From NCBI GenBank assembly GCA_009659925.1, contig PUXW01000019.1:1-64000 (forward strand): DNA of 64,000 nt, in the 5' to 3' direction. The position numbers were made by a program, and so were the translations under genes. Below the pieces are notes generated by a model. That model ran no database searches, had not been told where the DNA came from, and was given only the letters and a program-made list of their open reading frames with translations. The DNA comes from Nitratiruptor sp. Lineage in GTDB: Bacteria > Campylobacterota > Campylobacteria > Campylobacterales > Nitratiruptoraceae. Of this stretch, positions 10,756 to 17,081 are shown piece by piece. Each line of letters opens with the position of its first letter. Within the stretch, counting starts at the first letter, position 1.

Positions 10756-10893
10756 ATGTCCAACGAGTACAAGAATATCTACCTCGTGGCGGGGATCTTG
10801 ACTCTTTTCATCGCCTTCATGGCCGTTTCAACCTACATCGTAGTCCAGGAGGTCACTTCAAACCGCTCCTGTTTTCGCACCTGCGACCATTAA
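10756..10893 (+). CDS. 45-residue single-pass membrane microprotein
   Basis: This short gene has ATG 10756 with AAGGAGG at 10744-10750, five bases upstream, an almost ideal ribosome site. The product starts MSNEYKNIYLVAGILTLF, has one hydrophobic helix at about 9-29, and ends in a cysteine-bearing tail (NRSCFRTCDH, Cys40 and Cys43 with CxxC-like spacing after a CF pair). It stops with TAA at 10891-10893, sharing four bases with the stop of the convergent kinase gene. I recognise no family. The tail cysteines could bind a metal or form a disulfide. Reality rests on the ribosome site, the clean membrane helix and the exact stop-stop junction. Confidence 0.6.
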   Translation: MSNEYKNIYLVAGILTLFIAFMAVSTYIVVQEVTSNRSCFRTCDH

Positions 10894-12131
10894 TTTCGGG
10901 GGCCCGGGGGCCTTTGGCCCCCAATCTCGATCTGAAAAGCCGTTACCCCCTTCTCGTGTTTGTAGCGAAGGGTGAAGCCGTGGAGTTTGAGGATGTTGGC
11001 CACCAGATAGAGCCCCAGGCCAAAGCCACTTTGGGGATGGTCTTTGGTGAAGGGCTCCAAATAGTAGGAGAGCTCCCGTTTGAGGGGGGCGCCAAAATTG
11101 GCGATGGTGATCCGACCCCCTTCGATGGTGATGGAAATTGGGAGTTGGTGGGCATACTTGAGGGCGTTGTCGATGAGGTTCTTGAGGGCGATGGCCATCA
11201 GTTTGTAATCGGCGAGGATCTTGGAGCTTTCCCGCTCTTCGATGATAATCTCCTCCTTGTCGAACATACCGATATTGATCGCCTCTTCCACAAGCTCCCG
11301 GAGAGGGATGGGCTCGAGGTTGGGTTTGATCTTGGAATTGACCGCCTCCAAGGCGGCAAATTCGTTGATGAGGGAGTTGAGTTTCTCGAAGATCTGGATA
11401 AGCCGTTGACGCTGCTTGGGATCTTCCACCATCTCGGCGGCGATGCGCCCCTTGGTGATGGGGGTTTTGAGCTCATGCATGATGTTGCGCAACAGGAGTC
11501 GTCGGGAATTTTGAATGGCTTCCAGGGAGCTGGCTGCCTCTTGGAGGGCTGTTGCCACCTCCTCGATCTCTTTGAAGCTCTTGATCGTCAAGGCGAGCTT
11601 GAGCTCCCCCCGGGAAAAACGCTCGATCTCCCTGGTAATCTCTTTGAGGGGGCGAAGTTTGAGGATGAGGAGGGTGTAGAGCAAGAGCAAGAGAAGCATC
11701 ATCAAGGCGAAGATAGCGGTATAGAGAGTGGTGGTGAGCTCCCCTTGGTTCATATCCTTGATGAGAAGGGTGTTGCCCAGAGCGCGGATCCAGATGTAGT
11801 AGTCCTTTCCATGTTGGAGGAGGAGGATCTCCCCGAGGGGATGGATCTTGCGCCGGATGACCTTGGCTCCTTTGATCACTTCGATCACCTCTTTGGGGTA
11901 GGTGATGAGGAGCATGCCGATTTGGGCCAGGTCCTGAGAGAGCTCTTCGATGTCGTGGAGGGCGCTCAACCGCCAGATGAGGGATTGGGAGATGAAATCG
12001 TAGCGCTTTTGGATCTGGATCTGGGAGGCGGTCTTGAGGTATTTGAGGGCGAGGATGTAGGCGGCTCCGATGGCGATGGAGGCGATGAGGAAGATGGAGG
12101 TAATCCAGAAGAAGATGGAGATCGGCCTCAT
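10890..12131 (-). CDS. cprS: Sensor histidine kinase, CprS/ArsS type
   Basis: This 413-residue inner-membrane kinase has two membrane helices (about 8-30 and 138-158) around a periplasmic sensor of about 105 residues. A HAMP-like linker follows, then the HisKA helix with the phospho-accepting His219 in NIMHELKTP. The ATPase domain has an N box (LIDNALKYA) and a G box (GFGLGLYL). The HELKTP motif and short form are typical of the ArsS/CprS group in Campylobacterota. Gene order htrA-cprR-cprS equals that of C. jejuni Cj1228c-Cj1226c, where the system controls envelope genes. It shares ATGA with the regulator gene. The C-terminal codons contain a GGGGGCC/GGCCCCC hairpin (10906-10922). Confidence 0.85.
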   Translation of the reverse strand: MRPISIFFWITSIFLIASIAIGAAYILALKYLKTASQIQIQKRYDFISQSLIWRLSALHDIEELSQDLAQIGMLLITYPKEVIEVIKGAKVIRRKIHPLGEILLLQHGKDYYIWIRALGNTLLIKDMNQGELTTTLYTAIFALMMLLLLLLYTLLILKLRPLKEITREIERFSRGELKLALTIKSFKEIEEVATALQEAASSLEAIQNSRRLLLRNIMHELKTPITKGRIAAEMVEDPKQRQRLIQIFEKLNSLINEFAALEAVNSKIKPNLEPIPLRELVEEAINIGMFDKEEIIIEERESSKILADYKLMAIALKNLIDNALKYAHQLPISITIEGGRITIANFGAPLKRELSYYLEPFTKDHPQSGFGLGLYLVANILKLHGFTLRYKHEKGVTAFQIEIGGQRPPGPRN

Positions 12132-12787
12132 GGCACGAATTTGTAGCCGACCCCCCGAACAGAGACGATGTGGCGAGGATTTTTGGGATCTTCTCCAAGC
12201 TTTTGCCGAATACGGCTGATGATCACATCGATGGTCTTCTCGCTGGCATTTTCACTCAAGCTCTCACACGAGTAGAGGAGCTCCTCCCGATCGATGGGCT
12301 GGTTTGGGTGTTCGATGAGGAAGCTCAAAACCTCGAACTCGGCTGGGGTGAGGTGGAGGATCTTCCCTTGGTAGGAGATCTCCCGCCTGTTCTTGTAGAT
12401 CATGAAGGTCTGGCGGGGCTCCTCCTTTTTGACCCGCCGTCTCGTGATCGCTTTGAGACGGGCTTCGAGCTCCTTGGGATCGTAGGGTTTGGGCAGATAG
12501 TCGTCGGCCCCCAGCTCCAAACCCAACACCTTGTCACTCAGATCGCTCCGGGCACTGGAGATGATGATGGGAATGTCGCTGAATTCCCGGATCTTTTTCA
12601 AAATTTCAAGCCCATCCATGCCGGGGAGGGTCAGATCGAGGATGAGGGCGTCGTAGGGTTTGATGCGAATCGCCGAGAGGGCGATGAAGGGATCTTCGTA
12701 ATTTTCCACTTCGATCCCGTAGCGCTTGAGGTACTCTCCTAGAATCTCGGCCAATTCGGCGTCATCTTCGATCATGACCACTTTCAT
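12128..12787 (-). CDS. cprR: OmpR-family response regulator, CprR type
   Basis: This 219-residue regulator has a receiver domain (1-120) with acidic pocket Asp8-Asp9, phospho-acceptor Asp51 (LILDLTLPG), and conserved Lys100 (LPKPYD). A winged-helix DNA-binding domain follows (about 130-217), ending in the RGVGYKF motif. Its partner is the kinase encoded next, with an ATGA overlap. Upstream htrA is the likely first gene of the operon, as in C. jejuni, where CprR affects htrA. Four 11-bp phased repeats between htrA and the opposite gene (14261-14300) are spaced as OmpR-family sites and may be its autoregulatory target. The ribosome site is AAAGGGAGG. Confidence 0.87.
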   Translation of the reverse strand: MKVVMIEDDAELAEILGEYLKRYGIEVENYEDPFIALSAIRIKPYDALILDLTLPGMDGLEILKKIREFSDIPIIISSARSDLSDKVLGLELGADDYLPKPYDPKELEARLKAITRRRVKKEEPRQTFMIYKNRREISYQGKILHLTPAEFEVLSFLIEHPNQPIDREELLYSCESLSENASEKTIDVIISRIRQKLGEDPKNPRHIVSVRGVGYKFVP

Positions 12788-12801
12788 CGCCTCCCTTTAT
12801 C

Positions 12802-12814
12802 GGGGCAGAGCCCC
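12802..12814 (-). other. Short GC hairpin between htrA and cprR
   Basis: GGGGC at 12802-12806 and GCCCC at 12810-12814 pair around a three-base loop, just after the htrA stop codon. There is no T-run, so it is unlikely to stop transcription completely. It could stabilise the htrA message or partly reduce cprRS expression relative to htrA. Confidence 0.4.
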
Positions 12815-14217
12815 TACTTGATGACGAGGATGAGGGGGATGCCTTGGCGCTTGACGAAGACCTTCTTGGCGCCAGGCTTTTGGAGGGCCTCCTTGAGATC
12901 CTCCACATCTTCGATCTCTCGATCGTCCACCTGGACAATGACATCCCCAGGCTTGATCCCGGCCTTCTCGGCAGCACTCTCCTCCTTCACATCGGTGACG
13001 AAGACCCCCTTCACGTCGCTGGGGATATTATACATCTTTCGAATTCGGGCATCAAGGGTTTGCACTTCCAGCCCCTTGAGGGTCTCCACTACCTCTTCAC
13101 CACCGCTATCGGGACGCTCTTTGAGCCGAACGTAGACCGAGTGGACCTTGCCGTTGCGCTCATAGGTGATCTTGATCCGTTTGCCAGGGGGGAGGGAGCC
13201 GATAAGGTTCTTCAAGTCGTTGGCATCCTCGATGCGCCGTCCATCGACGGCAATGATGAGGTCCCCCCGCTTGAGGCCGGCTTCTGCCGCCGCACTATCC
13301 TTGGTGACATCGACGATGAGGGCCCCATAGTCGTGGCGGTAGACCTCTTTGAGGTCTCCCTTGAGATCTTCGATGAGTACGCCAAGGTAGCCCCGCTCGA
13401 TCTTGCCCTTTTCGATGAGCTTGGTGACCACCTCCTTCATCATGTTGGAGGGGATGGCAAAACCGATACCGTTGTTCCCGCCGCTGCGGGTGATGATGGC
13501 CGAGTTGATCCCGATCAGGGCTCCCCGGGTATCGACCAGGGCTCCACCGCTATTTCCTGGGTTGATGGCGGCGTCGGTTTGGATGAAGTTCTCATAGGTG
13601 TTGATTCCCACATTGGAGCGGTTGGTGGCGCTGACGATCCCCTGGGTCACCGTCTCTCCGATACCGAAGGGGTTTCCGATGGCAAAGACCACGTCGCCGG
13701 GCTTGATCTGGGAGGAGTCGGCGATCTTAATGGCGGGAAGTCCCTGCTTGTCGATCTTGATCACCGCCAGATCGGTGAGGGCGTCCTTGCCGATCACCTT
13801 CGCCTTGTACTCGGTGTCGCTGCCGGGCAGGGTGACGGTGATCTCGTCGGCATTTTTGATGACATGGTTGTTGGTGACGATATACCCGTCACTACTGATG
13901 ATCACCCCAGAGCCGAGGCTTCGCTGGATCCGACTCTTGGGGAGCCGATCCTTGAACATGGGGCCGAAGAACTGCTTGAAGAAGGGATCGTTGAAGAAGG
14001 GCATGTTGCTCATGTTGGGGAGCTTCACCTTCTTCTTGGTGGAGATGTTGACGACGCACTCCTTGGCCTCCTTGATGGCGTCGTAGTAGGAGATGACGAT
14101 GTTGTGACCGCTTTGTGGCATGACCCGTTTGAAGTATTTGGGAGCCTCGTTGAAGCGGATCGTTCCAGCATGGAGCAGTGCCGCCGCAACGAGGGAGAGA
14201 GAAAGTAGCTTGGACAT
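12814..14217 (-). CDS. htrA: Periplasmic serine protease/chaperone HtrA (DegP family)
   Basis: This 467-residue quality-control protease degrades or holds misfolded envelope proteins in the periplasm. It has an N-terminal signal peptide (LLSLSLVAAALLHA, cleavage near residue 17), then a trypsin-like domain with His118 (TNNHVI), Asp149 (LTDLAV) and Ser223 (GNSGGA). Two PDZ domains follow at about 265-355 and 380-460. In pathogenic relatives HtrA is also secreted and cleaves E-cadherin; nothing here shows that role. It heads the operon with cprRS, and its promoter region holds 11-bp phased repeats. A good ribosome site (AAGGAGGCG) precedes ATG 14217. Confidence 0.94.
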   Translation of the reverse strand: MSKLLSLSLVAAALLHAGTIRFNEAPKYFKRVMPQSGHNIVISYYDAIKEAKECVVNISTKKKVKLPNMSNMPFFNDPFFKQFFGPMFKDRLPKSRIQRSLGSGVIISSDGYIVTNNHVIKNADEITVTLPGSDTEYKAKVIGKDALTDLAVIKIDKQGLPAIKIADSSQIKPGDVVFAIGNPFGIGETVTQGIVSATNRSNVGINTYENFIQTDAAINPGNSGGALVDTRGALIGINSAIITRSGGNNGIGFAIPSNMMKEVVTKLIEKGKIERGYLGVLIEDLKGDLKEVYRHDYGALIVDVTKDSAAAEAGLKRGDLIIAVDGRRIEDANDLKNLIGSLPPGKRIKITYERNGKVHSVYVRLKERPDSGGEEVVETLKGLEVQTLDARIRKMYNIPSDVKGVFVTDVKEESAAEKAGIKPGDVIVQVDDREIEDVEDLKEALQKPGAKKVFVKRQGIPLILVIK

Positions 14218-14237
14218 GGAACGCCTCCTTGGTTTGA

Positions 14238-14246
14238 TGGTATAAT
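14238..14246 (+). promoter_or_regulatory. Extended -10 promoter for the inositol-monophosphatase-family gene
   Basis: TGG-TATAAT at 14238-14246 is a full extended -10 element on the + strand. Transcription would begin near 14253, giving an approximately 48-base leader containing the phased repeats. On the opposite strand the same bases offer TATCAT as a -10 for htrA. Confidence 0.55.
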
Positions 14247-14260
14247 GATAGAACAGAAGT

Positions 14261-14300
14261 TTAAACGGAGATTAAACGAAAGGTAAGCGAAGGTTAATGG
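14261..14300. promoter_or_regulatory. Four 11-bp phased direct repeats, candidate CprR site
   Basis: Units start at 14261 (TTAAACG), 14272 (TTAAACG), 14283 (GTAAGCG) and 14294 (TTAATGG), exactly 11 bases apart. OmpR/PhoB-family regulators bind such head-to-tail repeats. The block lies just upstream of the htrA -10 candidate and downstream of the start point inferred for the divergent gene, so one bound regulator could activate htrA and block the other. Confidence 0.55.
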
Positions 14301-15053
14301 ATGTTGCGTGGAGTTGTGGCCGAGGCCGGTGAGCTCTTGCGATCGGGCTATTTTCGTCGAAAGCAGGTGGAGTTCAAGGGGGTGATCGATCTCGTTACCG
14401 AGTATGACCGGCGGATCGAGGAGTTTTTGAGCCAGCGGCTCGCCTCCTTGGGGTTGCCCATCGTAGGGGAGGAGAGTTTCGAGGGGGAGATTCCACCAAG
14501 TGCTATCTTCATCGATCCCATCGATGGGACCACTAACTTCGTCCATCAGATCCCCTTTTGCGCCATCTCTGTGGCTATTTGGCGCGATGGCCTCCCCGTG
14601 GAGGGGGTGGTCTACAATCCAATAACCGCCGAAATGTTCTACGCCAAGCGGGGGGAGGGGGCCCTTTGCAACGGGGAGCCCATTGGTGTCAGCCAGACCG
14701 ATCGACTCATCGAGGCCCTCATTGCCACGGGTTTTCCCTATGCCAAGATAGAGCGTGGTAGCGAGTATCACTTTGTCCTCCGGGCTCTAGAGCGCCTTTT
14801 ACCAGTGACCAGGGATATCCGCCGTTTGGGGAGTGCCGCCTTGGATTTGTGCTACGTGGCGGCTGGCCGCTTCGATGGTTTCTATGAAATTGGCTTGAAA
14901 CCCTGGGATACGGCGGCTGGGCTCCTCATCGTCCAAGAGGCGGGGGGAGTCGTGACCAACCATTTGGGGGAGCCCTATCGATTTGGGGATGTGATTGTTG
15001 CAAGTAATGGCAAAATAGGGAATAATTTGATAGAACTTCTTGCGAAAGGATAG
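14301..15053 (+). CDS. Inositol monophosphatase family protein (SuhB-like)
   Basis: This 250-residue Mg2+-dependent phosphatase probably acts on inositol-1-phosphate or another sugar or nucleotide phosphate. Metal ligands are visible: Glu57-Glu58 (VGEES), Asp72 and Asp75 in IDPIDGTTNF (71-80), and the later Asp in WDTAAG (about 197-202). Length is usual. The start ATG 14301 has only a weak ribosome site; ATG 14297 is out of frame. A 3-base gap separates it from the large repeat protein gene, suggesting co-transcription. Substrates of SuhB-like proteins in this phylum are not settled; CysQ-like activity is less likely from the motifs. Confidence 0.82.
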   Translation: MLRGVVAEAGELLRSGYFRRKQVEFKGVIDLVTEYDRRIEEFLSQRLASLGLPIVGEESFEGEIPPSAIFIDPIDGTTNFVHQIPFCAISVAIWRDGLPVEGVVYNPITAEMFYAKRGEGALCNGEPIGVSQTDRLIEALIATGFPYAKIERGSEYHFVLRALERLLPVTRDIRRLGSAALDLCYVAAGRFDGFYEIGLKPWDTAAGLLIVQEAGGVVTNHLGEPYRFGDVIVASNGKIGNNLIELLAKG

Positions 15054-15056
15054 ATT

Positions 15057-17081
15057 ATGGGGAAGCGAATTTTTGTGAGTCTTACACTGGCTCAAGCCCT
15101 GCTTTTTGGAGGGAATCTCCTGCACAACGGGGGATTTGAGCTCTTCGATGCCCAAAAGGTCAACAAGTGGAAGTATGTCCATCTGGAAGGTTGGGAGGGA
15201 TTGGCCGAGGTGTGGAGCAATAGGAAGGGGCGCATCTCCCGGGACGGAGAGTACAAGATCGAACTCGATACCAAAGAGAGCGTGCTCGATCACCTCTCCC
15301 AGGTGGTGGTGACCCAGGAGGGGCAACACTACCTCATCACCCTCGATGCCTATGCCCGGCGCAGTGGTACTAGCGACTTCGAAGTCCTCGTAGATGGGGA
15401 GGTGATTGCCCGGGTGAGCCCCACCAACCGCTGGTACACCTACGGCGCCATCTTCGTAGGGAAGGGGGGAGAGCAGACCATCGCCATCCGGGAGCTTCCA
15501 GAGCAAAATGATGGCTATGGGGCCTTGATCGATCGAGTTGTCTTGCAAAGTGGCGATCTCCAGGAGCTAGAACGCACCCTCGACAAGAAGCGAAGCCATT
15601 ACGAGATCCTCGAACCCCAAGGGCTCGATCAGATCGTCGAGATCATCGATCAGGACCGGCGCATCGCCTACAAGGTGAGCCCTGAAGAGATCGAAAGGGC
15701 CAAGGAGGCCGCCTTGCACATGAACGAGCTCATCAAGGAGGCGATCCGGGAGAATGGTCTAGCCAACGATGGACGACTCCTTGCCTCCGATGTGATGGAG
15801 ATCAACCGCTACCTAACCGCCAACTACTCCTCCCAGTGGCGTGAACTTCGGGAGGATTTCGCCAAGGTGGAGAAGTATGGGGAGATCTACGCCATCGGCC
15901 ACCACGCCGCCCGGAGCGTATGGGCCAAGATCTACAACCTGGGCCTCTCCCCCTACGATGGAAGACACACCGCCAAACTCGACGGCTCCAAAGGGGATCG
16001 CTTCACCTATGTGGCCTTCCTTCTGGATGAGGTGGCCAACAAGGAGAGCTTGAAAAACCCCGACTACCGCGAGGTTCAAGGGAGCACGGGAACCGGACTG
16101 GATCGCATCGTTCAGGTGATCCTCACCGACCGGGGACTCAATGACAAGAATCCCACCAGTACCCTCCGGGCTGGAGCTCGCTATGCCGATGAGATGAACC
16201 ATCTTATCGTTGAAGGGATCAAGGCTACTGGAATCGCCAACGATGGCCACTTCTCCCCCGCCGATATCCGGACCCTCAACCACTACCTAGTCGATCGCTA
16301 TCAGGAGCGCTGGGCCCAGCTTCATGGAGATGACGAGGAGAATGAGGAGTATGGCTACCACCTGATCCAAAATGATGGGGCGACGACTCGGATGTTCGGC
16401 CACAATGTGATCAACACCATCGCCGATGGGATCTATCATCTCGGCTATCCCACCGACCACAAATACCATCTAGTCAACGAGGATGGCAATCGGAATCAGA
16501 GTTTCGAAGATGTGGCCTGGTGGCTCGAACAGGGCCTTGCAGCCGATATGGAGAGCCTCAAGAACCCTGCCGTCCAAGAGGTTCGGGGCACGACGGGTAC
16601 TGCCCTGGATCGGATCATCGAGGTCATCTACCACGACGAGGGGCTCTTGCGCAAGGTGTCGATGGAGGATATCCGGATCGCTGCTCGAAACGCCAACCGG
16701 ATGAATGAGCTCATTGTCGAGGCGATTCGAGAACTGGGAATTGCTCGGGACCGCTTCATTTCCTCAGAGGAGGTCAAGGCGATGAACCGCTACCTGGTAG
16801 AACGCTACCAAGAGGAGTGGGCCCAACTCCACGGGGATGACGAGGAGGGGAGCGAGACCGGTTTTCATCGAATCCAAAACGATGGGGCCATCAGCCGCAT
16901 CGAAGGGCGTAACCTCATTAATACCGTAGCCGATGGGATCTATCACCTGGGCTATCCCACCCGATTCTCCAGCCATCTGGTCAACGAAGACGGCAATCGG
17001 AACCAGAGCTTTTACAATGTAGCCTACTGGCTCACCCGCCATCTGCGAGCCGACATGGAGGCCGGCAAGCTGGACAAGTAG
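15057..17081 (+). CDS. Secreted 674-residue protein with N-terminal beta domain and three tandem repeats
   Basis: I do not recognise a named family. A signal peptide (IFVSLTLAQALLFGG) leads into a beta-rich domain (about 20-165) beginning LLHNGGFELFD, the style of carbohydrate-binding or DUF642-like modules. A charged linker follows, then three repeats of about 157-168 residues starting near 189, 346 and 514. Repeats 2 and 3 share LHGDDEE, IQNDGA, ADGIYHLGYP and LVNEDGNRNQSF; repeat 1 is diverged. The acidic DD/ND/EDGN motifs suggest calcium or other cation binding. Similar motifs occur, to my memory, in large secreted proteins of marine bacteria. It would act in the periplasm or outside the cell. 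It follows the phosphatase gene by three bases. Confidence 0.7.
   Translation: MGKRIFVSLTLAQALLFGGNLLHNGGFELFDAQKVNKWKYVHLEGWEGLAEVWSNRKGRISRDGEYKIELDTKESVLDHLSQVVVTQEGQHYLITLDAYARRSGTSDFEVLVDGEVIARVSPTNRWYTYGAIFVGKGGEQTIAIRELPEQNDGYGALIDRVVLQSGDLQELERTLDKKRSHYEILEPQGLDQIVEIIDQDRRIAYKVSPEEIERAKEAALHMNELIKEAIRENGLANDGRLLASDVMEINRYLTANYSSQWRELREDFAKVEKYGEIYAIGHHAARSVWAKIYNLGLSPYDGRHTAKLDGSKGDRFTYVAFLLDEVANKESLKNPDYREVQGSTGTGLDRIVQVILTDRGLNDKNPTSTLRAGARYADEMNHLIVEGIKATGIANDGHFSPADIRTLNHYLVDRYQERWAQLHGDDEENEEYGYHLIQNDGATTRMFGHNVINTIADGIYHLGYPTDHKYHLVNEDGNRNQSFEDVAWWLEQGLAADMESLKNPAVQEVRGTTGTALDRIIEVIYHDEGLLRKVSMEDIRIAARNANRMNELIVEAIRELGIARDRFISSEEVKAMNRYLVERYQEEWAQLHGDDEEGSETGFHRIQNDGAISRIEGRNLINTVADGIYHLGYPTRFSSHLVNEDGNRNQSFYNVAYWLTRHLRADMEAGKLDK

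Follow-up and report, generated by a model that had tools for sequence, protein, structure and literature searches.

A candidate CprR operator of four 11-bp units upstream of the htrA-cprR-cprS-type operon in Nitratiruptor

The intergenic region between htrA and a divergent phosphatase gene in Nitratiruptor sp. holds a block of four repeat units that is very probably the CprR operator of htrA-cprRS. The analysis took in a 64,000-nt stretch of the genome, here called the window, together with related genomes, and its conclusions are drawn from sequence comparison. We judge it likely that the block is the operator of a CprR-type regulator that would activate its own htrA-cprR-cprS operon, binding as CprR~P in two tandem dimers; the protease is probably switched on by the regulator of this operator.

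The repeat block and its promoters

The genes at the locus are as follows.

12814..14217, minus strand: htrA, Do-family periplasmic serine protease with two PDZ domains (TIGR02037, 484.7 bits; cut-off 416.2)
12128..12787, minus strand: cprR, OmpR/PhoB-type response regulator (REC and Trans_reg_C profile matches; PF00072, PF00486)
10890..12131, minus strand: sensor kinase of the ArsS family in the CprS position (NF038389, 353.2 bits; cut-off 250)
14301..15053, plus strand: inositol monophosphatase-family phosphatase, divergent from htrA (PF00459, 6.2e-60)
15057..17081, plus strand: repeat-protein gene, 3 nt behind the phosphatase gene (open reading frame)

In the window, the operator sits upstream of an htrA-cprR-cprS-type operon: 26 nt separate htrA from cprR, cprR and the kinase gene overlap by 4 nt, and 83 bp of intergenic DNA lie between the starts of htrA and the phosphatase gene. 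The name cprR was assigned from gene order, not from a curated family match; in the 1.44-Mb genome of the window, the ArsS-family cut-off is passed by the kinase in the CprS position alone. Across the genus, htrA stands next to cprR in 14 of 16 genomes; in one of the others (G005) the two genes lie on different contigs, while the remaining one (G011) has a truncated htrA and yielded no ortholog.

A first-pass annotation of this DNA had described four TTAAACG-like units exactly 11 bp apart, and this arrangement was borne out. Two of the units match at every position (TTAAACG at 14261-14267 and at 14272-14278, both 7/7) and two in part (GTAAGCG at 14283-14289 and TTAATGG at 14294-14300, both 5/7), every step being exactly 11 bp. 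The lattice scores 24/28 against TTAAACG, compared with a best score of 19 in 40 shuffles of the 64-kb window, and 24 was reached by none of 5000 shuffles of the 83-bp intergenic region. In a test that presupposes no word, four tandem 11-mers shared 82% identical letters against 61% in shuffles, none of 500 of which scored as high (p < 1/500 for period 11); period 12 was next best (p = 0.05), followed by 8 (p = 0.212), 14 (p = 0.61), 13 (p = 0.822), 10 (p = 0.934) and 9 (p = 0.996). The word TTAAACG stood only in part: its TTA cores are real, but CG is not conserved, and the closest relative (L009), which reads TTAAATG twice, keeps the TTA cores with altered spacer letters, CG among them. The conserved core is TTAA or TTAC when the units are read towards htrA (TTAACCTTCGC TTACCTTTCGT TTAATCTCCGT TTAAACTTCTG). 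A genome-wide search for TTAAACG-N4 repeats, which the same annotation had proposed, was run and found TTAAACG-N4-TTAAACG as one exact copy in the 1.44-Mb genome; with up to three mismatches there was no genome-wide enrichment (44 matches versus 100 for the backward control). An Rfam search of 13900-14600 gave no match at E <= 1.

The block and the signals around it are given below, both transcription starts being predictions.

14254..14297, minus strand: candidate operator, four units on an 11-bp lattice, conserved in 16/16 genus genomes
14297-14287, minus strand (read towards htrA): unit A, TTAACCTTCGC
14286-14276, minus strand (read towards htrA): unit B, TTACCTTTCGT
14275-14265, minus strand (read towards htrA): unit C, TTAATCTCCGT
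14264-14254, minus strand (read towards htrA): unit D, TTAAACTTCTG
14245..14250, minus strand: htrA -10, TATCAT, with unit A starting 47 bp away; transcription of htrA predicted to begin near 14238
14238..14246, plus strand: phosphatase extended -10, TGGTATAAT, a perfect extended -10; predicted start near 14253
14290..14293, plus strand: phosphatase Shine-Dalgarno AAGG, 7 nt before the ATG at 14301 and within unit A (AAGGTTAA on the plus strand)

In the window, the overlapping divergent promoters are real. The TATAAT (14241-14246) of TGGTATAAT and the htrA TATCAT overlap by 2 bp, so that polymerase would hardly be able to sit on both promoters, and the operator spans about +2 to +45 of the predicted phosphatase transcript or, counted for htrA, about -16 to -59. 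A search of 14150-14360 revealed no sigma70-type site that has a -35. On the phosphatase strand, 14 of the 16 genus genomes have a -10-like hexamer with at most one mismatch next to the block's htrA end, a count that has no chance control; these hexamers start 27 to 0 bases before that end, and TGn precedes nine of them. In G003 and G006, no such hexamer was found at this threshold.

All 16 genus genomes carry the block, with the consensus TTAACCTTTCA TTAATTTTTNA TTAATTTTTGT TTAA towards htrA. Its first TTA lies 47 bp from the htrA -10 in 14 genomes and 48 bp in two, and the -10 at this distance reads TATCAT, TACAAT, TATTAT or TAAGAT in the 15 genomes inspected. Unit D is the weakest, its TTAA having been lost in several genomes. 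Where the htrA-phosphatase gap is enlarged to 288 bp (L013), the block and its -10 are still together. With a sequence-only profile of the four units, the block was the best match in each of the 16 genomes (E from 1.5e-11 to 2.4e-4), and no other match fell below E 0.044. These E-values are rough, and the profile was trained on the same sites. The profile scored 150 of 212 to 1448 first-look candidates in 14 of the 16 genomes and all 88 in the genome of the window.

The invariance of AAGG (16/16 genomes), a few bases before the phosphatase start, could mean that unit A (AAGGTTAA on the plus strand) is kept only as the ribosome-binding site of that gene. We regard this as quite unlikely: equivalent lattice units occur where the phosphatase gene is hundreds of bases off or not seen, unit A of L138 holds AAGG with the phosphatase gene 352 nt off, and units B to D would be left unexplained. 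As an operator unit that also holds AAGG 7 nt before the phosphatase ATG in 16/16 genomes, unit A would be doubly constrained.

Upstream DNA of htrA across the order

Matches to HtrA at E <= 1e-60 were obtained in 156 of the 199 genomes of the order. Outside the genus there were 145 such genomes, 79 of which contributed the 80 loci of the survey. Twenty of these loci were the best search matches, and 60 were picked, mainly to spread over genera, before their upstream DNA had been seen. The gene cprR lies within 200 nt after htrA in 49 loci and does not in 30, with one locus unassigned; L213 was omitted from the non-adjacent group for having too little downstream sequence. "Non-adjacent" here means that no cprR with more than 45% identity was found in the 200 nt after htrA, and in such genomes it may lie elsewhere.

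The strict pair RTTWAC-N5-RTTWAC was found within 600 nt upstream of htrA in 36/49 cprR-adjacent loci versus 2/30 non-adjacent loci, counts to which no exact probability is attached, since the sequences had already been read when the pattern was chosen, and the loci are not independent (16/49 belong to family f4). A limit of 300 nt had given 31/49 and was raised to 600 after the sites of one family were seen further up, which left the non-adjacent count unchanged at 2/30. At spacings of 7-10 and 12-16, RTTWAC pairs occurred in 0/49 adjacent and 0/30 non-adjacent loci, and control patterns in the same upstream DNA were rare (reverse complement 1/49, backwards 3/49, complement 0/49), as was the pair itself inside htrA coding DNA (0/49). 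By hand tally, the pair is present in nine of the 11 families with adjacency (f1, f4, f6, f7, f9, f10, f19, f20 and f22); it was not seen in f11 and f15, where cprR is also adjacent to htrA. A second htrA in G101 (L210), with no cprR beside it, has no pair, and two loci (L196 and L214) carry the strict pair at the htrA promoter with cprR not next to htrA, where cprR may act from elsewhere.

Of the 13 adjacent loci that lack the strict pair, one has only 23 nt of upstream sequence. Seven of the other 12 carry a single RTTWAC at 16+11k bp from a -10-like hexamer, a number with no chance estimate, and in the remaining five no single RTTWAC was found at 16+11k.

The position of the pair relative to the promoter is fixed. 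In 33 of the 36 loci, counting from where the second unit begins, a TATAAT-like hexamer (at most one mismatch) follows after exactly 16 or 38 bp, against 0.8 expected from its density elsewhere; 11 loci fall in the 16-bp class and 22 in the 38-bp class, the difference of 22 bp being two units. Across the order, the same operator may occur in two discrete helical phases, as if a whole dimer site had shifted by exactly two turns. The window falls in the 38-bp class, its units C and D occupying the two turns nearer the promoter. It has no strict RTTWAC pair, the only exact RTTWAC being in unit A (ATTAAC), and it is tied to the order-wide element by lattice phase and intermediate relatives. In the GTTTAC register, its units read GTTTAA, GTTTAA, GCTTAC and CATTAA, which are near but not exact, and a locus of a sister genus (L141) has three exact GTTTAC units at 11 bp.

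Campylobacter promoters are described, in the available portions of two sources, as carrying a periodic A/T pattern instead of a -35 box (PMC3656092, PMC3847290), which could by itself yield T tracts every 11 bp. That the repeats are merely such an A/T-rich periodic signal of Campylobacterota promoters, with no dedicated regulator, is nevertheless very unlikely in our estimation, given that one particular word, RTTWAC, recurs at exactly 11 bp in 36/49 loci with cprR adjacent versus 2/30 without, and that the block extends to about -59 in the window. Because the strict pair tracks cprR and keeps a fixed -10 phase, we favor a regulator operator on a fixed helical lattice over A/T-rich periodicity.

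The predicted htrA leader in the window is only about 21 nt. In L013 (1850-2139) and L123, an additional stretch of about 200 bp, containing an inverted repeat, separates htrA from its promoter, operator and -10 being intact. In L018 (3351-4003; also L139), a long htrA-phosphatase intergenic region contains a duplicated segment of about 200 bp that ends at the operator, and shorter inverted repeats with differing arms were noted by eye in the htrA leaders of the genus relatives L014, L016, L124 and L010. A long hairpin between promoter and htrA was seen in family f4 (L142-L149, L151-L153, L155, L156, L208 and L209; 15/15 leaders folded, z -1.5 to -4.2); its arms differ between many species, and its loops are pyrimidine-rich, several with CTTACTCC and CTCCTTTCCT. 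One f4 leader searched in 12 family genomes matched in four, at htrA and nowhere else in each, and Rfam returned nothing for 14 loci, 11 of them from f4. This hairpin is possibly an undescribed leader RNA element.

The regulator and its mode of action

The genome of the window has 15 matches to the window regulator, itself counted, and one other regulator has apparent 11-bp phased repeats of its own upstream, so the site could in principle be owned by another OmpR-family regulator. We think this very improbable, as the strict pair tracks cprR beside htrA and was absent from 15 other regulator loci of the genus within the 2.2-3.7 kb searched. No motif was found upstream of a paralogous regulator on C12 or of its counterpart in G004, the C12 search covering only about 25 nt. 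The first-pass annotation had likened the units to OmpR-family sites and assigned them to CprR; this part is supported, given a period of 11 bp, which agrees with the 10-11 bp between direct half-sites in tandem operators of the OmpR/PhoB family, a regulator with REC and winged-helix domains, a strict pair that tracks cprR, and fixed orientation and phase. Its switch interpretation as a whole is partly supported.

A genome-wide regulon was considered and rejected, the four-unit profile being strong only at htrA with the next match at E 0.044 or worse. Searched over both strands of the 16 genomes, the strict pair occurred 54 times versus 39 for the backward pattern, and no regulon is claimed from this. 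As the genome yielded no further strong copy of the block, the operator reading draws no support from a regulon. Nor was peb4 supported as a second target in the genus: no RTTWAH pair spaced 9-13 bp was found in the 150 nt before 12 peb4-like genes, a search in which two of the 16 genomes had no peb4-like match and two of the 14 loci gave a wrong reading frame, and target sets may differ from those of C. jejuni. Two weak matches in the window's own genome were set aside as well, one on C14 that is not a comparable block and one on C2 that precedes another regulator with phased repeats of its own. Those C2 repeats (L002 1490-1560; G000:C2, before the regulator at 12541-13191, minus strand) are, by eye, A/T-rich and phased at 11 bp with a different word, and a second phased operator in the genome is possible there.

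In H. pylori, ArsR represses its own operon, according to an excerpt of PMC9449129, and units C and D overlap the region contacted by RNA polymerase; CprR might likewise bind the block and repress htrA-cprRS by negative autoregulation, with the phosphatase gene unaffected or relieved. We hold this to be unlikely. Discrete phases of 16 or 38 bp and an almost invariable orientation suit an activator, and a repressor has little need of either. Activation of htrA is preferred over repression mainly because a fixed phase suits an activator that contacts RNA polymerase.

For activation, we propose the following sequence of events. Envelope stress would activate the sensor kinase, and two CprR~P dimers, arranged head to tail, would occupy about -16 to -59 of the htrA promoter. 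This promoter has no recognisable -35, and CprR~P would recruit RNA polymerase there; transcription of htrA-cprR-cprS would then close a positive feedback loop.

Svensson et al. reportedly described in 2015, in Mol Microbiol 96:189, a C. jejuni CprR consensus of GTAAAC and binding at the htrA promoter. The gene order of C. jejuni is htrA-cprR-cprS, as in the window. Our literature search returned, among the matches listed, no text joining GTAAAC and CprR. On the opposite strand GTAAAC reads GTTTAC, which is among the four RTTWAC half-sites that occur across the order. The window differs in having four 11-bp units with mostly TTAA-type cores, a comparison in which the C. jejuni site is represented by the reported consensus, and in that its units face a divergent phosphatase gene and adjoin its promoter and ribosome-binding site. 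According to an excerpt of one review, CprRS has a part in the control of htrA and peb4 in C. jejuni (PMC4518328), and an excerpt of another describes CprR as essential in this species, with a regulon that is little known (PMC9449129). A C. jejuni htrA promoter pull-down named CosR, NssR, Fur and Cj1000, and not CprR, as predicted transcription factors in the portion of the source available (PMC13189099).

The ArcA boxes of E. coli, as presented in the accessible text of PMC3798270, are likewise direct repeats 11 bp apart from centre to centre; most ArcA sites hold three to five, four repeats should accommodate two neighbouring dimers across ~44 bp, and some sites lie downstream of the start. 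The same text describes the ArcA sites of activated genes as having no conserved location or orientation, and as numbering well over a hundred (PMC3798270). The block described here differs from ArcA sites in having a fixed position and orientation, and each genome yields a single strong match to the profile. In class II activation by PhoB at the pho box, tandem direct half-sites replace the -35 and end about 10 bp before the -10. The 16-bp class of the order-wide operator resembles this arrangement; the window differs from it, being in the 38-bp class with its best-conserved pair two turns further upstream. The operator is very probably a variant of OmpR-family sites in which four 11-bp units face a divergent phosphatase gene.

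The phosphatase side and its meaning

The operator may also switch the phosphatase gene off, repression being plausible by geometry. Activated htrA would lower phosphatase transcription by exclusion at the overlapping -10 boxes, and the bound operator, ribosome-binding site included, would act as a roadblock on the phosphatase transcript. Such lowering is expected because the -10 boxes overlap and the operator covers about +2 to +45, and we put the combined effect of exclusion and roadblock at slightly under an even chance.

The distance from operator to phosphatase start is 10 nt (L141), 57 nt (L140), 322, 352 and 495 nt in sister genera, and the phosphatase gene was not seen in ~3 kb at htrA in other families. 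Because these distances vary and the gene is unseen in other families, blocking the phosphatase cannot be the general role of the operator; as judged from these loci, the toggle geometry is restricted to this genus and some neighbours. The repeat-protein gene, which the first-pass annotation had placed under the same block, was found at one of 12 relative loci (L009, 84% identity), several of which have little sequence there. A further proposal is a tentative one that we think somewhat doubtful: in the genus, the outermost CprR half-site would be fused with the phosphatase Shine-Dalgarno and the -10 boxes would overlap, forming a reciprocal toggle between envelope proteolysis and the phosphatase, built on an order-wide two-phase operator.

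The analysis provides a letter-level, testable definition of a candidate operator for a regulator that is essential in C. jejuni, and it tells a regulator site apart from the A/T periodicity that promoters of this group show. With its two fixed phases, the element would offer a natural test of how an OmpR-family activator contacts RNA polymerase at promoters without a -35 box.
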